IMG/VR virus record: IMGVR_UViG_3300033145_001047
Coordinates: 1-64,000 of that record
Strand: one strand, 5' to 3'
DNA: 64,000 nt
From: a virus
In this document: positions 9,901 to 15,861 of the stretch, piece by piece
How positions within the stretch are numbered: position 1 is the first letter of the stretch
How the letters are laid out: each line of letters starts with the position of its first letter
The notes under the pieces: model-generated
What the model was told of the DNA's origin: nothing
The model's database searches: none
What the model saw: only the letters and a program-made list of their open reading frames with translations
Position numbers and translations under genes: made by a program

Positions 9901-11358
9901 CCCGTCGAAGGTTAGCGCGTGACCGCTCGGGCTGCTATCGTACGAGCTTGTCGCTCCATCTGTCCCGTCGAAGTGCAGGAGCAATTTTGTATACGAATCT
10001 GAATCCACAACGCCGATTTCCTCGCAGACATCCGTGAACAAGGCGTCCAGGTAAGCCCCCAGGTTCTCCGCTATGGACAGAGTGTCCGCAACGACGCCCA
10101 CCTCCACCACCAGGTCGACGACGGACACGCTCTCCGTTATCAGGAAGTCCTCGAACACGCTGGTGTTCATCTCGTCGAGGTACGCTTCCACCGCCGACTC
10201 TGTGATGGTCAGGTTTTCAGCCAGCTCGATGTTAAGGACATCGAGGTCCACGGTCACGTCTTCCAGGATATTCAGGACGTCGCTGGCGTCGACGCCGACG
10301 CCTATAGAGGCGTCGGCTCCCTCCCGCGTCTCGTGAGTCTGGAACACAAAGAACGTGCTCGGGCTGTTCTGATTCGCGTACTCAGTCGCAACCCAATTTG
10401 CAGAATGACCCGTCCCTTTAATTACTCTTACTTCATCAATAATGCCGTCCCAGAAGTTTGTGGTCCCGACTCCTTGACCACCTATTTTCAAGTCAGTAGT
10501 ACCGGCAGGAAACGCCGAGCTATCATCCTCTGTAGCGGTCTGAGCATCGTCTTGATACAATGTGAACGTGTCGCCGACTCTCGTGAGAGTAATCAACTGC
10601 CACGTACCTACTGGAGATTCATCACCAACCAAGTCAACCGAAGGAGTACCGCACCAGAATCTAACCGCCAGTGAAGTAGCGGAAACGCTCTCACCCATGA
10701 ACTCAAAGCTGCCGGTGCTCGAACGATACATGACGAAATTGTTATTTGCGCCTTGTTGCGATTCCTTCTTGATCCACATTGAAAGCGTTATATCTTCACT
10801 TCCAAAGTCCCACTCGGGCGAGTCGGGGGCGGTCAAATAATCATTATCACCGGACTCAAAGTCCTGGCCGTCTGCGATTTTCCCAGCAATGTCAACCGAG
10901 CCGGTATTTGTTAGCGTATGCCCGTTACCTGACGAATCAAGAAGGCTATTATTCAAATGCCATACCGCTGAGAAATCAGACCAGACCCCACTCGCGTTTT
11001 GCTGGTCGGTCGCATCCGGATTCCCGCAATACATCCAGACATATCCGTCCGACGCGCTCGTTGCGCTCGTTAGTTTCACCCAGGCCCACAACTCCCCGGT
11101 GGAGTTGTCGTAGTCCTCAATCTCATGGTCCAGCTTGTTGCCATTCAAGTCGGTGAACAGGATGTCGTACCCGTCAGACCTTGCCTTGTCCCGGAGGTAG
11201 TTGCTCGTGATGTGCACCAGGGCCGGGAAATCGGCGTGCGTTCCCGTTATCTGCTCTTTCGGTATCTTGTACTTCTCTCGGTCGGACCATCCAACACCGT
11301 GCCAACCGTCGGGCATTGCGTAGACTTCGTCGAACACCAGGATATTCAGGTCAGCCAT
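3955..11358 (-). CDS. 2467-residue giant repeat protein with DUF2341, two LamG-like domains and a propeller-like domain
   Basis: Residues 1 to about 110 match the DUF2341 type (DREKYKIPK, FPALVHI, DGYVWMYCGNPDA). Residues about 120-350 form a LamG/concanavalin-type fold (VWHLNNSLLDSSGNGHTL, WQLITLTR, WDGIIDEVRV). About 100 residues of repeat follow. A second LamG-like domain spans roughly residues 452-679 (LLLHFDGTDGA, WYHVAVTRSGDDVQFWVDG, DGWVDELRISKGVAR). Repeats of 20-26 residues, consensus SDTVTVTEyVeLLDIvvEL, fill about 680-1560 and 1915-2400. A non-repeat, BNR/propeller-like block rich in Trp and Tyr occupies about 1560-1910. LamG folds bind glycans, so this is likely a receptor-binding or decoration fibre. 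The start is preceded by an unusual leader and terminator (11351-11467). The LamG coding stretches look AT-richer than the repeats, suggesting later insertion. Confidence 0.8.
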   Translation of the reverse strand: MADLNILVFDEVYAMPDGWHGVGWSDREKYKIPKEQITGTHADFPALVHITSNYLRDKARSDGYDILFTDLNGNKLDHEIEDYDNSTGELWAWVKLTSATSASDGYVWMYCGNPDATDQQNASGVWSDFSAVWHLNNSLLDSSGNGHTLTNTGSVDIAGKIADGQDFESGDNDYLTAPDSPEWDFGSEDITLSMWIKKESQQGANNNFVMYRSSTGSFEFMGESVSATSLAVRFWCGTPSVDLVGDESPVGTWQLITLTRVGDTFTLYQDDAQTATEDDSSAFPAGTTDLKIGGQGVGTTNFWDGIIDEVRVIKGTGHSANWVATEYANQNSPSTFFVFQTHETREGADASIGVGVDASDVLNILEDVTVDLDVLNIELAENLTITESAVEAYLDEMNTSVFEDFLITESVSVVDLVVEVGVVADTLSIAENLGAYLDALFTDVCEEIGVVDSDSYTKLLLHFDGTDGATSSYDSSPSGHALTFDGDAQLDTAQKKFGPSSLILDGNGDYLTSPDDADWDLGTDDFTLECCVRFNSFSSTQYRLVGEGRGVRGSGPRESGWSLLYDRTAGNLVLDHYDGGSQQSLSVSWTPSPSTATWYHVAVTRSGDDVQFWVDGTQVGTTQDATGIVYNRAESFGIYMGRFEFGATSVSYLDGWVDELRISKGVARWTAAFTPPTEAYDATPVALDLSIGVDVSDTVSITEDVEVVDITVEMPLVFGAVAVTEDLTAVLDVLNLDVNDTAAVTEYVELLDLVVGVPVVFDEPGVLEDVTLSIDALNANVSDTVTITESVSVVDIVVEVGVVAETVGVTESATTSLDALYIEESEELTITETVSADVLVDVVVFDIASVEENVQLLDIVVDLPVVFDTVVVVENTVLTVEGALGVFDTATVTENVVVSVDVLNIGTFDAVGVVDVPGLNDLVVELGPAVDLASVSENITAYLDSIHLSVYDEATATESVTVLLGELQVATSDTVTITESVSVVDLMVEIGIVADTSAVSESVTVSLDELYASVFDAVATTESVSTDVLMSVSVFDSIGVVENVQLHDIVIDLPVVFDAVAVLENIEPYMGMDINVNDDVTTTESAAVSLGELNVDIFDTVSIAEVPLLTDLVVEVGPAVDLVTVLEDVTSSLDQLNLLVFDEPTITEDVTPLLDALVPSVFDTSSVVENVTMEDLGLNFLAFDVATVAESMTQYLDVLNFLVLDPFHVLITESVSVVDLVVEVGVVMDPVSVTESATVGLDVLNLSVYDVAAAAEWVHLLDITVELSAFDLAAAVESVELSITELYLAVYDEGTVAEYVELLDIILELPLSYDEVTVLEELTLNLDLLNVSVGEDLLVTEVVVTHDLVIELGVVADVVGAVENVGLLPDALFLAVSDDVLAAEATTVLLPELVVAVSENVAHSEYVELLDITIELPVVYDIVAAVENVTLTLPELYLQAGEDVSVAEVALMTDLVVELGPAVDLAVVTENVTMLLDVLVPEVSDNVGVAEWVQLLDLVIDLAVYDEITTTESASAFLSALNIVAGDDVLVTESVSVVDLVIEIGVVAETVSVADVVEDVTTNSGEIPYCCQSAAWFDGTYYWRAWFNRTGGYIQVDYTTDPDNAWAENTGARISDSNVLNDFSIYAKASSLVIVYTQGGDVLIREATSYPSTSFAWSAANTIWTDVSKTYSRPNISRTQSNRYWASATEKDGAKQYAVVKRSGPGNITSWDSAATLGDTNNEGESFSALMHSLPLSPPTNFQVVCAYVEGTQLQYKEFDGTWDASPTNIAVLKISPQSLVAHQFELNFDDVNGHVDMVYVKSDGTCISREWEPVGGLGAEVVLDANTDCEHPGIGTFGDYLVFAWDRPHGDDNNQFYVRLLHKTGHILGPILAMAETTATMTRSDVSKTEDESHSCFIYWEEASTVFTRTLEIGLDVSDTITVAEWVFLLDLFIDLEVSEIIAVVEDVQLLDIVIEMPLVFDEVATTEDVTAYLDVLSLSLSDQVSIAEVAIMTDIVIELGPATEEVALTENVTVGLDVLNVDVSDALNIVEWVSLLDIVIDLPVVFDVVTVTEQATAYLDELFLNVFDTVTVAEVVLMTDIMIELGPVVDLVAVTEQADVSLGFLNVSESETLTVTEWANLLDITVELFVFDTSTVVEWVNLLDITVELAASDEAVATETITVSLDALFVAAGDDIVATEAVVLHDIIVELSVSEDLTVVENANVALSEFFISVSDTLTVTEWTYLLDIIIELPVLSEDITVVEDLTVLLPELCTEHFEIIAVTDVAVMHDLIIELGIVTEVVTLSEYVELLDLTVELEAFEALEVLENVGLVLDELFLQAGEDVTVTEDVEVVDITIELGPVFDDVAVTDVVVDLRLDVLNFFVVQPMMIVINEVAQVVDLVIEVGIVAEYNFVAEFAEAYPDVLVPSVSETVTTVEWIFMDREMIIDVSDSVATSESFEPDMPLNFEAAEGPGGVQIVQVSGW

Positions 11359-11467
11359 GAATATCTCGCGTGATCTTTAGTGGAAAAAAAAGAGGGAGGT
11401 AGAGAACCGTAACTCTCCGACCTCCCCGAACAGGAGCGTCCCTGACGACGCTTGTCTTCTTCTTCAT
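11351..11467 (-). CDS. Putative 38-residue leader peptide spanning a terminator
   Basis: ATG at 11467 follows GAGGGGGACCGC. The frame encodes MKKKTSVVRDAPVRGG and a hydrophobic middle (VLYLPLFFPL). It runs through the whole terminator hairpin and U tract at 11384-11426 and stops with TGA at 11351-11353, inside the first codons of the giant fibre gene (ATGGCTGA). A 7-bp stem (11468-11474 with 11491-11497) could cover part of its ribosome site. The layout suggests that translation of the leader could open the hairpin. Whether the peptide is made is unknown; it may simply be an open frame. Confidence 0.4.
   Translation of the reverse strand: MKKKTSVVRDAPVRGGRRVTVLYLPLFFPLKITRDIHG
11384..11426 (-). 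terminator. Intrinsic terminator before the giant fibre gene
   Basis: Read on the minus strand, GGGAGGT and AGAG pair with CTCT and ACCTCCC, followed by CTTTTTTTT. The hairpin ends only 26 bases before the start of the 2467-residue gene, leaving no room for a promoter between them. It must therefore be bypassed or conditionally opened for that gene to be expressed from the minus strand. Confidence 0.8.
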
Positions 11468-11590
11468 GCGGTCCCCCTCAGAATCAGCAAGGACCGCTCG
11501 GCTCGTTTCCTTTCACCAGGGCTTCCTACCGGCATCCTATAGAGTACCGGCGTCGCCTTTCCGCTGGTAGAACTAAACGGTTACGGTAGA

Positions 11591-11619
11591 ACTTTACCAC
11601 CACTTTCCCTGTCTGTCAA
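11591..11619 (-). promoter_or_regulatory. Candidate sigma70-type promoter for fibre region
   Basis: On the minus strand TTGACA (11619-11614) is followed by a 17-base spacer and TAAAGT (11596-11591). The -35 is perfect and the -10 matches four of six. A 9-base direct repeat GGTAGAACT at 11566-11574 and 11585-11593 (written on the plus strand) overlaps the -10 and could be an operator. Transcription would pass a structured leader of about 200 bases and the terminator at 11384-11426. Confidence 0.45.
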
Positions 11620-11871: not shown

Positions 11872-12690
11872 CTACGGGAACATCTGACCGTGCTCATTTA
11901 TATGTCGGCAAAAAATTGACGTGTCCAAAAGGAAGGGCCACTTCTTCTTCTGGAACTTCGGCCACCCGGCCCTCGCCAAGACTTTCTCCTTTATGATCCT
12001 GTCATTCCACCACAGATCCTCCGTCCCTACTTTCGTATTGTAGCGGCCTTGCTCAGGATCATACCATGCTTTCCTCGGGGTCTCGAACACTCGACGGACC
12101 ACGACCGGCCCGGCGATTGTCTGCAGCGTGTAGACCTCCGACTCGTCGTACATCAGCTTGATTATCGAGCCGTGAATGAGACAGCACCCTAGCGGGATTC
12201 CATCGACCCACACCTTGTCCCCCTGTTCCCAGTCCATATAGCATGAGCTACCGCGCCCTCGGAACAACAGAGGCTCCGGGTGCGTTCCCTTGCAGTAGTA
12301 GAGACCGCTCACTATCGGGATATCTCCCTTGAGCATGTAGTCGTTAATCTTCAAGAACGTATCGGGGGGAAGGATAACGTCATGGTCGATAAAAAACAGC
12401 CACTCGAATTCCTGGTCGATGAAGTATTGGACGCACACGTTCCGCGCATCGGCAACAGCCCATCCCATCGGACTATACTGGTCCATGAACTGAAAGATAT
12501 CGCCCTGACTCCAGTTGCAGGGAATCACCTGTCCGAATCGAGCCATCATCCACTCGACGCGGACGAGCCCGGTCGTCGGCACGGCCATACATATACGTTT
12601 CTGCCACCCTTCCCACTCCGACGACTTCGGGACCCCCATATCCGGGATGTGCAGCGTCTTCGAGGACTTCTTAGTTTGTTTCTTCGACAC
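11872..12690 (-). CDS. Glycosyltransferase, GT-A fold
   Basis: 272 residues. The segment WLFFIDHDVILPPDTF near residue 97 carries an acidic DxD-type motif (DHD) typical of metal-dependent GT-A glycosyltransferases. It is preceded by an Rxxx-rich segment (ADARNVCVQYFI) and followed by YYCKG and a C-terminal EDLWWNDRI acidic segment that could supply the catalytic base. A GTG start with GGAGGTG overlaps the methyltransferase gene by 20 bases. It should transfer a sugar from a nucleotide donor, and virion proteins or host wall polymers are candidate acceptors. Placement beside the giant fibre genes and a methyltransferase fits modification of a virion glycan, but the substrate cannot be read from sequence. 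Confidence 0.7.
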   Translation of the reverse strand: MSKKQTKKSSKTLHIPDMGVPKSSEWEGWQKRICMAVPTTGLVRVEWMMARFGQVIPCNWSQGDIFQFMDQYSPMGWAVADARNVCVQYFIDQEFEWLFFIDHDVILPPDTFLKINDYMLKGDIPIVSGLYYCKGTHPEPLLFRGRGSSCYMDWEQGDKVWVDGIPLGCCLIHGSIIKLMYDESEVYTLQTIAGPVVVRRVFETPRKAWYDPEQGRYNTKVGTEDLWWNDRIIKEKVLARAGWPKFQKKKWPFLLDTSIFCRHINEHGQMFP

Positions 12691-13210
12691 GCGGCACCTC
12701 CTTCATCTTTTCCAGAATCACTTCCATGTTGCCGCCGAAGTTGTGAACATTTTTGACAGTCTTCCACGGCCTCGGCTTGTAGACGTTGAACAGCTCTCTA
12801 TTGGGCTGCGCCGTTGGATCGAAGTAAGCGATTGACGCCTCGTTCAGAGCGCAGCAATGGGAAGGGTCCTGCACATATCCGAAGCTGTTCCCATACGGAA
12901 AGCCGAGCCATAGCTGTCCGCCGACTTTCATGAGCCTCCACCACTCATTCATCACGCCCATGATCTTCTTCGGGCAGATATGCTCTATCAGGTGACTCGC
13001 CAGGATGGTGTGACAGCACTCGTCCGGCAGCGGGTAGGGTACGGTCTCGACGTCGTGAACGATGTCAACCCCATCGAGCGCCCTGATATCGAGGCCGACG
13101 AAATTTTCTTGTTTGTTTTCGCCACACCCCACGTCCAGCTTGATACCCTGATTGTGTTTTTTCAACAGGGCCAAGATATTTCTCGGCAGCTTGACCACCT
13201 TCTTTCTCAT
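12671..13210 (-). CDS. Class I SAM-dependent methyltransferase
   Basis: 179 residues. Motif I KLDVGCGENK lies near residues 24-33 and an acidic VGLDI follows as the strand-2 end that binds ribose. A motif IV-like segment (ASHLIEHI) and a strand-5 GGQLWLGFPYG also fit the small Methyltransf_11-like fold. The start overlaps the HNH gene stop by four bases (ATGA), and its end overlaps the glycosyltransferase start. Sugar or small-molecule methylation is the likely role, given the glycosyltransferase partner. The acceptor is unknown. Confidence 0.8.
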   Translation of the reverse strand: MRKKVVKLPRNILALLKKHNQGIKLDVGCGENKQENFVGLDIRALDGVDIVHDVETVPYPLPDECCHTILASHLIEHICPKKIMGVMNEWWRLMKVGGQLWLGFPYGNSFGYVQDPSHCCALNEASIAYFDPTAQPNRELFNVYKPRPWKTVKNVHNFGGNMEVILEKMKEVPRVEETN

Positions 13211-13974
13211 GATCTCCTTTCTTTCTTGGCGCTCATTTCTTTCTCGCCGTAGTCGATTATTCTCCTCAACAGCTCGGATACGGATATCCCCTTCTTGTTC
13301 GCAGTGCTGCGTAGGAATTTGACATTGTTTTCTGTAATGCTAATCATTCTTCTGACCATCTTTTCAGCGGTCTTTTTTAGCGTATATACAAATGACGATC
13401 TTTTTCGTTTGTGTTTTGTCATATCAATTTCACTTGCCTTGACTTCGTGTGTATCTATTCCCGCCAATGTTGGAAAGTTCAGGTTAGCAAACGCACCTCG
13501 CAACTCAATCGCCTTCATGTCTCGTGCTACAGCAGCTTCCTCTGGAGTATCAAATGCACCCAAACGGTGAATCTTGCCACAATGCACAATTTTTGCACGA
13601 TATCTATTGTTACACAGAAGCACACCAATATAACCGCTTTGGGAAGCTTTGTGTGCATGTAAATTGCGGTGATTTTCCAAAGATGTACACACCCTGAGAT
13701 TTATTTTCCGGTTATCTGTTGGGTCTCCATTGATGTGGTCTACCATCGCTGCAGGAAATCCTAATATCTGTTGTTGCATGAAAATTCTTACCGATCCTTT
13801 CCCGTCTTTTTTAAGTCTTCTTCGCCCTGCTCTGCCACAACCGGCATTTCCGTCAGAACAATAGTACCAATTATGCTTCAAAAGTTCTGGTGCCTCCGCA
13901 ATATCAACAAGAGCATATTTCCCTTGCGTTAGCGGAATCTTAGTATATTTGATATCGTTCTGCATTTCACCCAT
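13207..13974 (-). CDS. HNH homing endonuclease with AP2-like domain and ribbon-helix-helix-like tail
   Basis: 255 residues. The N-terminal half has an HNH_3-type core (AAMVDHINGDPTDNRKINLR, with NHRNL following). Residues about 115-165 match the AP2-type DNA-binding segment of phage homing endonucleases (SGYIGVLLCNNRYRAKI ... LGAFDTPEEAAVARD). The last 50 residues (MISITENNVKFLRSTA ... GISVSELLRRIIDYG) look like a ribbon-helix-helix domain, which is not standard in this class. The gene is clearly AT-richer than its neighbours, a sign of transfer. The start codon overlaps the stop of a 26-residue leader ORF (TAATG), right after a terminator-like hairpin. Confidence 0.85.
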   Translation of the reverse strand: MGEMQNDIKYTKIPLTQGKYALVDIAEAPELLKHNWYYCSDGNAGCGRAGRRRLKKDGKGSVRIFMQQQILGFPAAMVDHINGDPTDNRKINLRVCTSLENHRNLHAHKASQSGYIGVLLCNNRYRAKIVHCGKIHRLGAFDTPEEAAVARDMKAIELRGAFANLNFPTLAGIDTHEVKASEIDMTKHKRKRSSFVYTLKKTAEKMVRRMISITENNVKFLRSTANKKGISVSELLRRIIDYGEKEMSAKKERRS

Positions 13975-14054
13975 TAAAAAGACCCGCCGATCATCGGGAA
14001 GATGAACGCCAATAGGCGTGTTATCGGCGGGCTTTCAAACATGTTATAAGGCAT
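13974..14054 (-). CDS. Putative 26-residue leader peptide overlapping the HNH start
   Basis: ATG at 14054 follows GGGAGGATGA. The frame encodes MPYNMFESPPITRLLAFIFP and six more residues and crosses the entire hairpin at 13976-14031. It stops with TAA at 13974-13976, so that TAATG joins its stop to the HNH start. The HNH ATG has no good ribosome site of its own, so reinitiation from this leader is plausible. The layout matches the leader at 11351-11467. Confidence 0.4.
   Translation of the reverse strand: MPYNMFESPPITRLLAFIFPMIGGSF
13976..14031 (-). terminator. Terminator-like branched hairpin before the HNH gene
   Basis: On the minus strand, CCCGCCGAT (14031-14023) pairs with ATCGGCGGG (13991-13983), followed by TCTTTTT. 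Inside, ACGCC and GGCGT form a second stem with a TATT loop. It ends two bases before the HNH start codon, so it can act as attenuator or as a ribosome-blocking element for that gene. Confidence 0.7.
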
Positions 14055-14075
14055 TCATCCTCCCAGTTCACAACA

Positions 14076-14104
14076 ATACTATACCAAGAATATACGTGCG
14101 TCAA
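14076..14104 (-). promoter_or_regulatory. Candidate promoter for leader and AP2-HNH gene
   Basis: On the minus strand TTGACG (14104-14099) is followed by 17 bases and TAGTAT, or by 15 bases and TATAGT. It lies just past the end of the upstream HNH gene and about 20-45 bases before the 26-residue leader ORF. The context GACTTGACG is also found in the candidate promoter at 57059-57087. Confidence 0.4.
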
Positions 14105-14124: not shown

Positions 14125-14802
14125 CTATTTTTTGCGCTTGGCCAGGAACAGCCGGGCAGCTTCCTTGTGCCCTCTGAGGGGAACTCCCAGTTCTTCGAGA
14201 TACCGCTTGACCTTGTTCTTGTGCCAGCCAAGCTCCTCCGCAATATGCCGGAACGATCTCCTCTCTTTGGTGTATTCCTTCTTTATCCAGACAGCGTCGC
14301 AATCATCGTACAAGTGCTTTCTCGGCTTCTTCGCCCGTGCGCCCTTCTTTCTTGCTTCAAGGGCTGCGGCGGTCATGGTGTATCTTCTTCTTTCGACATC
14401 TATCTTCTTTAGAGCGTAGAGGACAAGAGTGTGGTCGCATCCCAGCTCGGCTGCTATGTCAGTGACGCTTCTCTTCTTCCTGCCATACTCAGTCTTGAGC
14501 CAAGCCTTCTCATATAGCCGTGGATATTTTATCGCGCCATGTCTCCTGTTCAGATGTTCCTGACTTGACGCAAACAGTTCAAGATTCTCAAGTAAATTGT
14601 TCTCCTTGTTTTCGTCACGATGATGGACGACCTCTTTCTTTGTCAGAAGCCTTCCAATTTCCTTCTCCATCACTAGACGATGGTGCATTACCTTTCGCCC
14701 TGGGTGTGGATATCCGGACGGCTTGGTCACCATGATATAGCCGTCCTGCATGAGCTTGTAGCCCGTCAATGAATCGAGGTCGAGTTTCTTGATACCAAAC
14801 AT
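14125..14802 (-). CDS. HNH homing endonuclease with helix-turn-helix repeats
   Basis: 225 residues. An HNH_3-type core sits at about residues 36-85 (RKVMHHRLVMEKEIGR, EVVHHRDENKENNLLENLEL). Two HTH-like segments follow (SVTDIAAELGCDHTLVLYAL and SFRHIAEELGWHKNKVKRYL), probably for target recognition. This is the usual layout of free-standing phage homing endonucleases. It lies directly downstream of the tail gene that holds the two group I introns, separated by a terminator and its own promoter. The gene is less GC-rich than its surroundings. Confidence 0.87.
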   Translation of the reverse strand: MFGIKKLDLDSLTGYKLMQDGYIMVTKPSGYPHPGRKVMHHRLVMEKEIGRLLTKKEVVHHRDENKENNLLENLELFASSQEHLNRRHGAIKYPRLYEKAWLKTEYGRKKRSVTDIAAELGCDHTLVLYALKKIDVERRRYTMTAAALEARKKGARAKKPRKHLYDDCDAVWIKKEYTKERRSFRHIAEELGWHKNKVKRYLEELGVPLRGHKEAARLFLAKRKK

Positions 14803-14861: not shown

Positions 14862-14895
14862 AAAAAGGGAAGGCTGTTCTCGGCCTTCCCTTTTC
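14862..14895 (-). terminator. Intrinsic terminator at end of head/tail operon
   Basis: AAAAGGGAAGGCC-GAGAACA-GCCTTCCCTTTTT on the minus strand forms a long stem with a T run. The hairpin is almost symmetrical, so it could act on both strands. It closes the transcription unit that begins near 28100. Confidence 0.85.
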
Positions 14896-14913: not shown

Positions 14914-15861
14914 TCAACTGAACCTGAGCTGATACGTGGCGTTCCATAACTTGTTACTCTCGCTTAACGTACGTTACGCAGCGAGGGCGACATCATCTCT
15001 GTGTCGCTCTGCATGTCGCCATGCAGTTCGGACTGTCCCTTCAACTCCCATCGAGAGTGTCCCCCGTCCAGTCTCTACACCTTCCTCTGCATCCGCAAAG
15101 GCTTGGCTCGGGATTGTCTCCTCTCGGAGGTGTTCCCCGAATTTGAGGGATTTGCTTCTCACCGTCACCGGTGAGTGACGCAAACACTTTACGTTTTGGT
15201 TAGCAAGATTGTTACTCCCACCACGAGTGGTGAGGACGATGTCGTTTCCGCATCGTTCTACGAGTCGCCCCGCAGTTCGGACTGTCCCTTCAACTCCCTT
15301 ACGGAGTGTCCTCCATCCAGTCTCTACGCCTTCCCTGATTACTCTCAGGGCTTGGTTCGGGATTGTCTCCTTGACAGCAAGGAGGTGTTCCCCGACTTTG
15401 AAGGATACTTTGAGCAATGTCACCATTGCCCGGCGCCATAACCATAACGCCCACTGACTTGTGGCATACGTCGTTCCGCACAGAATCGTCCCGCCCGCGC
15501 TGGTGTTAGCCAGTGCCACGTTCTGAATCGTGCATGTTCCGCCCATGTCCGAACCGGCGAACTGGGCCGTGCACTGCAGCGTCTTCGAGGACACCGCTGT
15601 ATTCGTGCTCGTCACACGTGCGCCCGTCTCTCCTTCGAGGGACGTGCCCGCTGCTCCCGGAGCCGTTCCGGTTCCGATAGCCATGTGACTCACCTGTTTG
15701 CTACCGGCGACTGCCCCGAGGGAGCCGACGATGTAATCCTGGAAGCCGAGGTTCACCACGGTGTTCTCCCTCCAGCCAGAATCACCGACGATCTTCCCGG
15801 ACTTCTCGTCTACCATCTGTAGACGCAAGAAACCTTTGACCTTCAACATGTCACTATTCAC
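14914..15861 (-). CDS. Tail/virion protein gene interrupted by two group I introns
   Basis: Proposed exons, in transcription order, are 15861-15446, 15214-15191 (24 bases) and 14971-14914. Together they total 498 bases, 165 residues plus stop. Exon 1 holds a phage structural pattern (SHMAIGTGTAPGAAGTSLEGE; TCTIQNVALANTSAGGTILC). The joined end reads ATSQWAFNNLANQNVTLSES and then NKLWNATYQLRFS, typical of the closing beta strands of such proteins. The GTG start overlaps the upstream glycosyltransferase stop and has GGGGGTGA before it. Without splicing the frame stays open through intron 1 and stops within intron 2 at 14974, which would give a 295-residue protein. Splice sites are predicted from P1 pairing, terminal G and frame. 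Confidence 0.75.
14972..15190 (-). ncRNA. Group I intron 2 in the tail protein gene
   Basis: 219 bases. The 5' site is marked by ACGT of exon 2 pairing with GCGT, with U-G at the cut. P2 is CTCACCG-GTGA-CGGTGAG. The conserved core includes TCGGGGAACACC, GAGACAATCCCGAGCCAAG, GTGTAGAGACTGGACG and AAGGGACAGTCC. P9 is CTGCATGGCGACATGCAG, almost the P9 of the T4 td intron as I recall it. The intron ends with G at 14972. No endonuclease is encoded inside. The P1 helix is short (four pairs), so the exact 5' site is less sure than for intron 1. Confidence 0.8.
15215..15445 (-). ncRNA. Group I intron 1 in the tail protein gene
   Basis: 231 bases. Exon 1 ends GGCGTT, which pairs with the internal guide GGCGCC (15437-15432), with U-G at the splice site. 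P2 (GCAATG-GTGA-CATTGC) has a GTGA loop as in td-type introns. The core shares long identical stretches with intron 2: TCGGGGAACACCTCC, GGAGACAATCCCGA and GTTGAAGGGACAGTCCGAAC. P9 is CTGCGGG-GCGA-CTCGTAG, and two further 3' hairpins precede the terminal G at 15215. The length is a multiple of three and the frame contains no stop. It is probably subgroup IA, judged by similarity to td. Confidence 0.85.

Follow-up and report, generated by a model that had tools for sequence, protein, structure and literature searches.

A candidate transcription attenuator before a phage HNH homing endonuclease gene and leaders of similar design in other phages

We describe here the leader of HNH1, a free-standing HNH endonuclease gene of an uncultured phage, and propose that positions 14104 to 13974 form a two-state transcription attenuator of this recently inserted gene, a reading that draws on predicted RNA folds and to which we give a probability of about 0.6. 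The DNA analyzed (the window) is a 64-kb stretch of an 86,167-base phage record in IMG/VR; all genes predicted in it, and all elements of the HNH1 leader, lie on the minus strand. A strong terminator, a helix that competes with it, the order in which the two form, and the recurrence of this arrangement at genes of the HNH-AP2 type were computed. Homing endonucleases are selfish genes, which need enough expression to spread and little enough to spare the phage, and the known controls on them, mostly from T4, are late promoters, hairpins masking the ribosome binding site (RBS), processing, and 5' terminators.

Two predicted, competing helices in the HNH1 leader

The preliminary description of this DNA had reported a promoter candidate, a GGGAGG site, a 26-codon open reading frame (ORF) crossing a branched hairpin followed by TCTTTTT, and a TAATG overlap with the start of HNH1, all of which were confirmed on the minus strand (Table 1). 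The promoter can also be read with an alternative -10 hexamer, TATAGT, at a spacing of 15 nucleotides (nt), which scored 10/12. The hairpin (-31.1 kcal/mol; z = -5.8; none of 200 shuffled sequences as stable) leads directly into a U tract and hence has the form of an intrinsic (Rho-independent) terminator. About five intergenic terminators were found on the coding strand in a scan of the whole 86-kb contig, and the one in the HNH1 leader is the most stable. Its stem ends before 13976, which leaves both candidate starts of HNH1 (see below) outside the stem, and RBS sequestration of the T4 type is therefore not seen. No Rfam covariance model matched the HNH1 leader, and no long U run is visible in 14068 to 14038.

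The leader ORF crosses the terminator, which begins 17 nt after its AUG, and stops beside HNH1, with its TAA sharing A13974 with the ATG of the gene (TAATG, 13976 to 13972), as is typical of pyrBI. With TAATG held fixed, 0.9 to 2% of shuffled leaders yielded an ORF of at least 20 codons with an ATG and a Shine-Dalgarno (SD) sequence that ended there, and with both TAATG and the hairpin fixed, a comparable ORF arose in 4.6 to 12%; furthermore, 4-nt overlaps of stop and start are frequent in this genome. The ORF alone is only mildly unusual and is weak evidence. No homologues of the leader peptide were found in 50,697 phage records, and neither this peptide nor those of the parallel leaders described below contain a run of regulating amino acid codons of the trp or his type.

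A feature not reported in the preliminary description is the complementarity, over 16 nt, of segment A, which contains the SD sequence and two AUGs, to segment A' in the loop of the terminator. An inverted repeat of 15 nt in A and A' departs twice from Watson-Crick pairing, both times as a G-U pair. The run of 16 compares with a mean of 7.5 in shuffled sequences and was reached by none of 10,000 shuffles of the leader and by none of 5,000 shuffles of leader and hairpin together; among 1,632 terminator-like sites in related loci, one has a run of at least 16 and three have a run of at least 15. IMG/VR was also scanned for the pattern of this particular A/A' pair, and no match was obtained. When the transcript was folded as it grows, A:A' (-28.1 kcal/mol) was predicted with the 3' end at 13994 to 13985, and the terminator (-31.6 to -34.1 kcal/mol) was predicted from 13982 on. 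In terms of probabilities, the prefixes go from A:A' with P = 0.999 to the terminator with P = 0.989 once B', the core of its 3' arm, appears. According to the predicted folds, a second helix that forms earlier on the nascent RNA competes with the terminator, as expected of an attenuator, and the loop lengths suggest that the two exclude each other strictly. A third strand, 14125 to 14107, just after the HNH2 stop, was considered as an anti-antiterminator on read-through transcripts and was rejected, as 31% of shuffles pair equally well.

In light of these folds, it is probable that RNA made by polymerase starting from 14104 would normally fold A:A' first, resulting in readthrough into HNH1 and the genes behind it. 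If A were occupied, most simply by a ribosome initiating at GGGAGG/AUG, A:A' could not form, B:B' would form instead, and transcription would stop before HNH1. If a ribosome had already entered the hairpin, B would be blocked and readthrough would result, as in pyrBI, and a ribosome translating the leader would end on TAATG and possibly restart at HNH1. The signal that moves the switch would most simply be the position of the ribosome, and the net effect would be low, translation-sensitive expression of the endonuclease.

Recurrence of the design before other HNH-AP2 genes

The first sign of parallels was that two HNH-AP2 loci, L128 and L159, were conspicuous in the list of terminators, and when the upstream regions of L128, L159, L110, and L136 were read, the same order of parts was seen. 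We then scanned 3.80 Mb of strand, covering both strands, for an A:A' pairing of at least 9 nt, with A' within 7 nt of B', a B:B' stem of at least 7 bp, and a U tract. Eight distinct sites were found, and six of them lie directly upstream of HNH-AP2 genes: the window leader, three in phage G015, each before a different HNH gene (two in L254 and one in L212), and single ones in phages G016 (L136/L219) and G018 (L128). Two of them, L212 and L254:2177, first came to light through the scan and were thus found blind, and the two sites not associated with HNH genes are weaker. The scanned set contains about 124 distinct HNH-motif ORFs, and the 200 nt upstream of each make up less than 1% of the strand; by our own arithmetic, about 0.05 of the eight sites would be expected upstream of such ORFs by chance. 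The design was absent from about 386 kb of strand from fetched loci, which were partly uncultured HNH loci and included stretches of Bacillus phages Slash and Stahl, a Felix O1-like phage, and a T4-like phage, and it was likewise absent from a 22-kb stretch of T4 that contains mobE. A possible seventh case is L159:1905-1991, with a 13-nt pairing between CTCAGGAACATGG and CCGTGTTCCTGAG, an A' that is farther from the 3' arm, and a weaker U tract.

Within the six leaders, each A pairs over 10 to 16 nt with its own A' and over only 3 to 6 nt with the A' of any other, and B:B' is likewise specific to its own leader, except between two of the G015 paralogues. These cross-pairings were compared directly, and a MAFFT alignment of the paralogous leaders was found to be misaligned. 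To judge from these comparisons, the letters have been replaced while the pairing was kept, which amounts to complete covariation and includes three paralogous leaders within one phage. In all six leaders, the predicted fold is A:A' as long as B' is missing and the terminator once B' has been made, and all six have promoter-like -35 and -10 sequences just upstream. The leader AUG lies inside A or at most 10 nt from it in every case. Outside the window, it follows the -10 hexamer by 6 to 7 nt, that is, near the expected 5' end of the RNA, and five of the six leaders would therefore have an AUG at or near the 5' end and be leaderless. An HDV-like ribozyme fold, which has a similar A-B-A'-B' order, was judged unlikely, since the length of A:A' ranges from 10 to 16 bp, a fourth stem was not seen, and no Rfam match was obtained.

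The leader frame is less uniform. In three of six leaders (the window, G015a, and G015c), its stop lies no more than about 10 nt from the endonuclease start, and in G015c, it precedes the start by a few nucleotides. The G015b frame runs on into the gene, and that of G018 overlaps the gene out of frame. An ORF that ends on the start codon, as noted in the preliminary description, is seen in only two of the six, the window (TAATG) and G015a (TGA overlapping ATG); the strongest signal is instead the complementarity of the leader start region to the terminator loop, which is found in all six.

These counts bear on an attenuator of the pyrBI type, in which a ribosome on the 26-codon leader would disrupt the terminator and reach the HNH1 start and A:A' would play no role. 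The principle is established for pyrBI (PMC5021804, PMC4824070), the window has an SD-equipped frame that runs through the terminator and has its stop at the start codon, and the frame also crosses the terminator in four of the five parallels, making five of six in all. In the remaining one, G016, it stops before the terminator, and the proximity of frame end and endonuclease start in only half of the leaders does not fit such a mechanism either. Moreover, the hairpin lies only 17 nt past the AUG, and E. coli terminators that close escaped repression by ribosomes unless pausing intervened (PMC4824070). As the conserved A:A' pairing would also be left unexplained, we regard this explanation as quite improbable.

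Somewhat better, although still unlikely, is a plain intrinsic terminator, which would only limit transcription into a selfish gene or mark the end of the HNH2 unit, with the ORF and A:A' as by-products. The strength of the hairpin, the best of the coding-strand intergenic terminators, agrees with this, and a leader ORF is not rare once the hairpin is given. In T4, terminators are also present at the 5' ends of the free-standing endonuclease genes mobE and segF (PMC2988022). HNH genes are not clearly enriched for adjacent terminators (10 of 89 HNH-AP2 starts versus 16 of 192 control ORFs), which is also the reason why the idea that HNH genes in general use terminators next to their starts was discarded. 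What a plain terminator does not account for is the 16-nt A:A' pairing, not matched in the 10,000 shuffles, and its recurrence with complete covariation before five other HNH-AP2 genes; also against it are the relatives that have HNH2 but lack HNH1, in which no hairpin follows HNH2.

It is also very improbable that 14068 to 13978 is a small RNA gene of about 90 nt that acts in trans and for which the position before HNH1 is secondary. The leader has its own promoter and terminator and a compact fold, as such a gene would, but it has no Rfam match, and the parallels all stand directly before HNH-AP2 start codons and have no common sequence, unlike a trans-acting RNA.

Several points weigh against the two-state attenuator that we favor. 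The scan rule was written after the window and three other examples had been seen, the six examples come from only four phages, with three of them being paralogues, and about 95% of the sampled HNH genes are without the design. The window leader has no close homologue, and its A:A' pairing therefore rests on one sequence. Its start also differs from the others, with an SD sequence here and an AUG at the likely RNA 5' end in the other five. The minimum energy of the prefix from 14069 to 13985 is unexceptional, with 7.8% of shuffles being as low, because A:A' can be replaced by part of the terminator stem; the evidence for the switch is the uninterrupted A:A' complementarity and its recurrence rather than the prefix energy. 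Since A:A' and B:B' use different strands, a strained pseudoknot holding both together is conceivable. Lastly, the role of leader translation is uncertain, because a terminator that lies less than 100 bp into a frame can act without interference from ribosomes, as reported for E. coli; in the same organism, closely following ribosomes abolish termination (PMC4824070), and tight coupling on pyrL prevents formation of the terminator (PMC5021804).

Beyond the window, the six leaders might represent a recurrent class of attenuators dedicated to phage HNH-AP2 genes, a view that we hold tentatively and at somewhat less than even odds. In this class, the 5' end of the transcript with its AUG would pair with the loop abutting the 3' arm, occupancy of the AUG by a ribosome would decide between readthrough and termination, and any change of sequence that preserved A:A' and B:B' would be tolerated. 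If this is true, a compact RNA switch with no common sequence stands before HNH-AP2 genes of unrelated phages and constitutes a new layer of control, invisible to sequence similarity and to Rfam but findable by an A-B-A'-B' rule.

Insertion of HNH1 and features of the surrounding module

TABLE 1 Positions of the HNH1 leader elements, adjacent genes, and homologues of a second structured RNA
Feature	Position	Strand	Remarks
HNH2, free-standing HNH endonuclease gene	14125-14802	-	Upstream of HNH1; present in some relatives
σ70-like promoter TTGACG-17-TAGTAT	14076-14104	-	Score of 9/12; 21 nt after HNH2 stop
SD sequence GGGAGG	14064-14059	-	
A, 5' strand of antiterminator helix	14050-14065	-	UGGGAGGAUGAAUGCC
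Leader ORF, 26 codons	14054-13977; TAA, 13976-13974	-	MPYNMFESPPITRLLAFIFPMIGGSF; SD sequence GGGAGG
Branched terminator hairpin	14037-13978	-	
B, core of terminator 5' arm	14023-14031	-	CCCGCCGAT; full stem begins at 14037
A', terminator loop segment	13995-14010	-	GGCGUUCAUCUUCCCG; 3 nt before B'; pairs with A
B', core of terminator 3' arm	13983-13991	-	ATCGGCGGG
U tract UCUUUUU	13976-13982	-	
HNH1, HNH endonuclease gene (255 aa)	13207-13974	-	Pfam HNH_3, E = 1.5e-7; PHROG HNH families
Methyltransferase gene	12671-13210	-	Downstream of HNH1; start overlaps HNH1 stop (ATGA)
Homologue of 11497-11579 RNA	L027:8575-8654		
Homologue of 11497-11579 RNA	L028:8220-8301		
Homologue of 11497-11579 RNA	L031:8147-8228		
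Homologue of 11497-11579 RNA	L033:8769-8851		
Homologue of 11497-11579 RNA	L034:8242-8324		
Homologue of 11497-11579 RNA	L041:8133-8213		
Homologue of 11497-11579 RNA	L042:8205-8285		

By its HNH_3 domain, HNH1 is a free-standing HNH homing endonuclease, probably of the HNH-AP2 type. Pfam gave no AP2 match in HNH1, and the region after the HNH motif is covered by PHROG HNH profiles and by relatives. A second ATG in its frame, at 13965, lies 9 nt downstream of the first and is preceded by GGGUGA. The true start may be this one rather than the ATG in TAATG, because relatives of HNH1 begin near 13965 (MKxIPLTQGK...); the overlap seen in the preliminary description stands, and its assignment as the HNH1 start is less secure.

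Searches with the tail protein and the methyltransferase gathered about 50 related phage loci, in which the gene order is tail gene, HNH2 in some, methyltransferase, glycosyltransferase-like gene, and a small gene. HNH1 is absent from this place, between the tail gene or HNH2 and the methyltransferase gene, in all of these syntenic relatives, and it is therefore an insertion between otherwise adjacent conserved genes. In L021, L022, and L023, which have HNH2 without HNH1, HNH2 is followed by a promoter-like site (read by eye) and then by the methyltransferase gene, with no hairpin after HNH2. The C-terminal segment of HNH1 (13207 to 13371, minus strand) is ribbon-helix-helix-like and matches, with 33% identity over the aligned stretch, a separate ribbon-helix-helix-like ORF of 45 amino acids (aa) that lies between promoter and methyltransferase gene in L023 (5598 to 5735). 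This is most simply explained if a promoter and the small ORF were already present, the HNH part arrived between them together with the leader hairpin, and the HNH part then became fused to the ORF. The G+C content is lower in the HNH1 region (40 to 43%) than in its neighbors (50 to 60%), and no DNA-level relatives of the locus were found among the cultured phages searched.

According to the preliminary description, the leader at 11351 to 11619 has the same layout, and the two together suggested a shared control strategy. This second leader has a promoter, a terminator, and a 38-codon ORF, and the similarity is only superficial: the ORF runs 5 nt past the start codon, and A:A' pairing is lacking (a run of 5 versus 16). 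By eye, the leader ORF crosses the terminator in some relatives and not in others and is therefore not a conserved part of this leader. Together with the presence of a different, covarying RNA, this led us to reject it as the same device; the shared strategy persists in the recurrence before HNH-AP2 genes of other phages and loses this example. The other RNA, at 11497 to 11579 (minus strand), is situated between a 71-aa gene and the one that follows, is usually succeeded by a terminator, and is found after the same 71-aa gene in at least seven other phage genomes (Table 1). Nine of its 15 pairs are changed on both sides, and its covariation score is 0.638, compared with 0.294 ± 0.040 after shuffling. 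It has no Rfam match and appears riboswitch- or attenuator-like.

Further observations were made in the same module. Two tandem, mutually similar group I introns (15009 to 15200 and 15258 to 15456, minus strand) interrupt the tail-protein gene and enclose an apparent micro-exon of about 13 nt (TAACCAAAACGT); the relatives are uninterrupted (...TSQWASNQNVNATYQLRFS). In L027, L028, L031, L034, L036, L039, and L041 and in the window (14862 to 14895, minus strand), the tail gene is directly followed by a terminator-like hairpin, the sequence of which varies. An intein-like sequence with the beginning CFKGETEVETIDG... apparently interrupts the glycosyltransferase-like gene of L022 (6800 to 7383). 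In L039 (7132 to 9042), the homology to the glycosyltransferase-like gene falls into two parts about 1 kb apart, and in L055 (7330 to 8865) and L056, the same is seen for homology to the methyltransferase; these split homologies suggest further insertions of introns, inteins, or endonuclease genes in the module.

Comparison with known systems

The preliminary description held the strategy to be undescribed. Its parts are known, from pyrBI (PMC5021804, PMC4824070) and from the terminators and hairpins of T4 endonuclease genes (PMC2988022), and restraint of homing endonucleases by RNA structure is thus not new. In the open-access literature searched, we found no paper that joins homing endonucleases to attenuation leaders, and a broad survey of bacterial attenuators (PMC2965389) does not mention phages or endonucleases. 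The design is apparently an undescribed, recurring way of holding such genes in check.

Among phage systems, T4 mobE and segF are similar in that transcription of a free-standing homing endonuclease gene is limited by an intrinsic terminator at the 5' end of the gene, but the T4 terminators are inside the coding region. The hairpins of T4 I-TevI, I-TevII, I-TevIII, and segB and of Aeh1 mobE resemble the HNH1 leader in that an RNA structure directly upstream of the endonuclease start lowers expression and promoter choice matters. There, however, the RBS is sequestered and control is exerted on translation, whereas the structure in HNH1 is a terminator that precedes the start codon.

Similar to the HNH1 leader, the pyrL leader of E. 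coli pyrBI is an ORF with its own start that extends across an intrinsic terminator to a stop next to the structural gene, and the position of the ribosome can decide termination. In contrast, the pyrBI switch is UTP-controlled pausing, and the target here is a phage homing endonuclease gene. To our knowledge, no helix joins the leader start region to the terminator loop in pyrBI. The trp, his, and ilv attenuators and the antibiotic-induced ones of the tylosin type share the competition between a terminator and an upstream helix, with a choice that a ribosome on a short leader ORF can make. They differ in that the alternative strand of HNH1 is the initiation region of the leader itself, which pairs with the loop beside the 3' arm and not with an arm, and in that HNH1-type leader peptides lack a diagnostic run of codons. 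Taken together, the HNH1 device would, by analogy, work like a known kind of control, a transcription attenuator linked to a leader ORF; what is special about it is the use of the leader start region as the antiterminator strand, its pairing to the loop beside the 3' arm, and its repeated association with HNH-AP2 genes.
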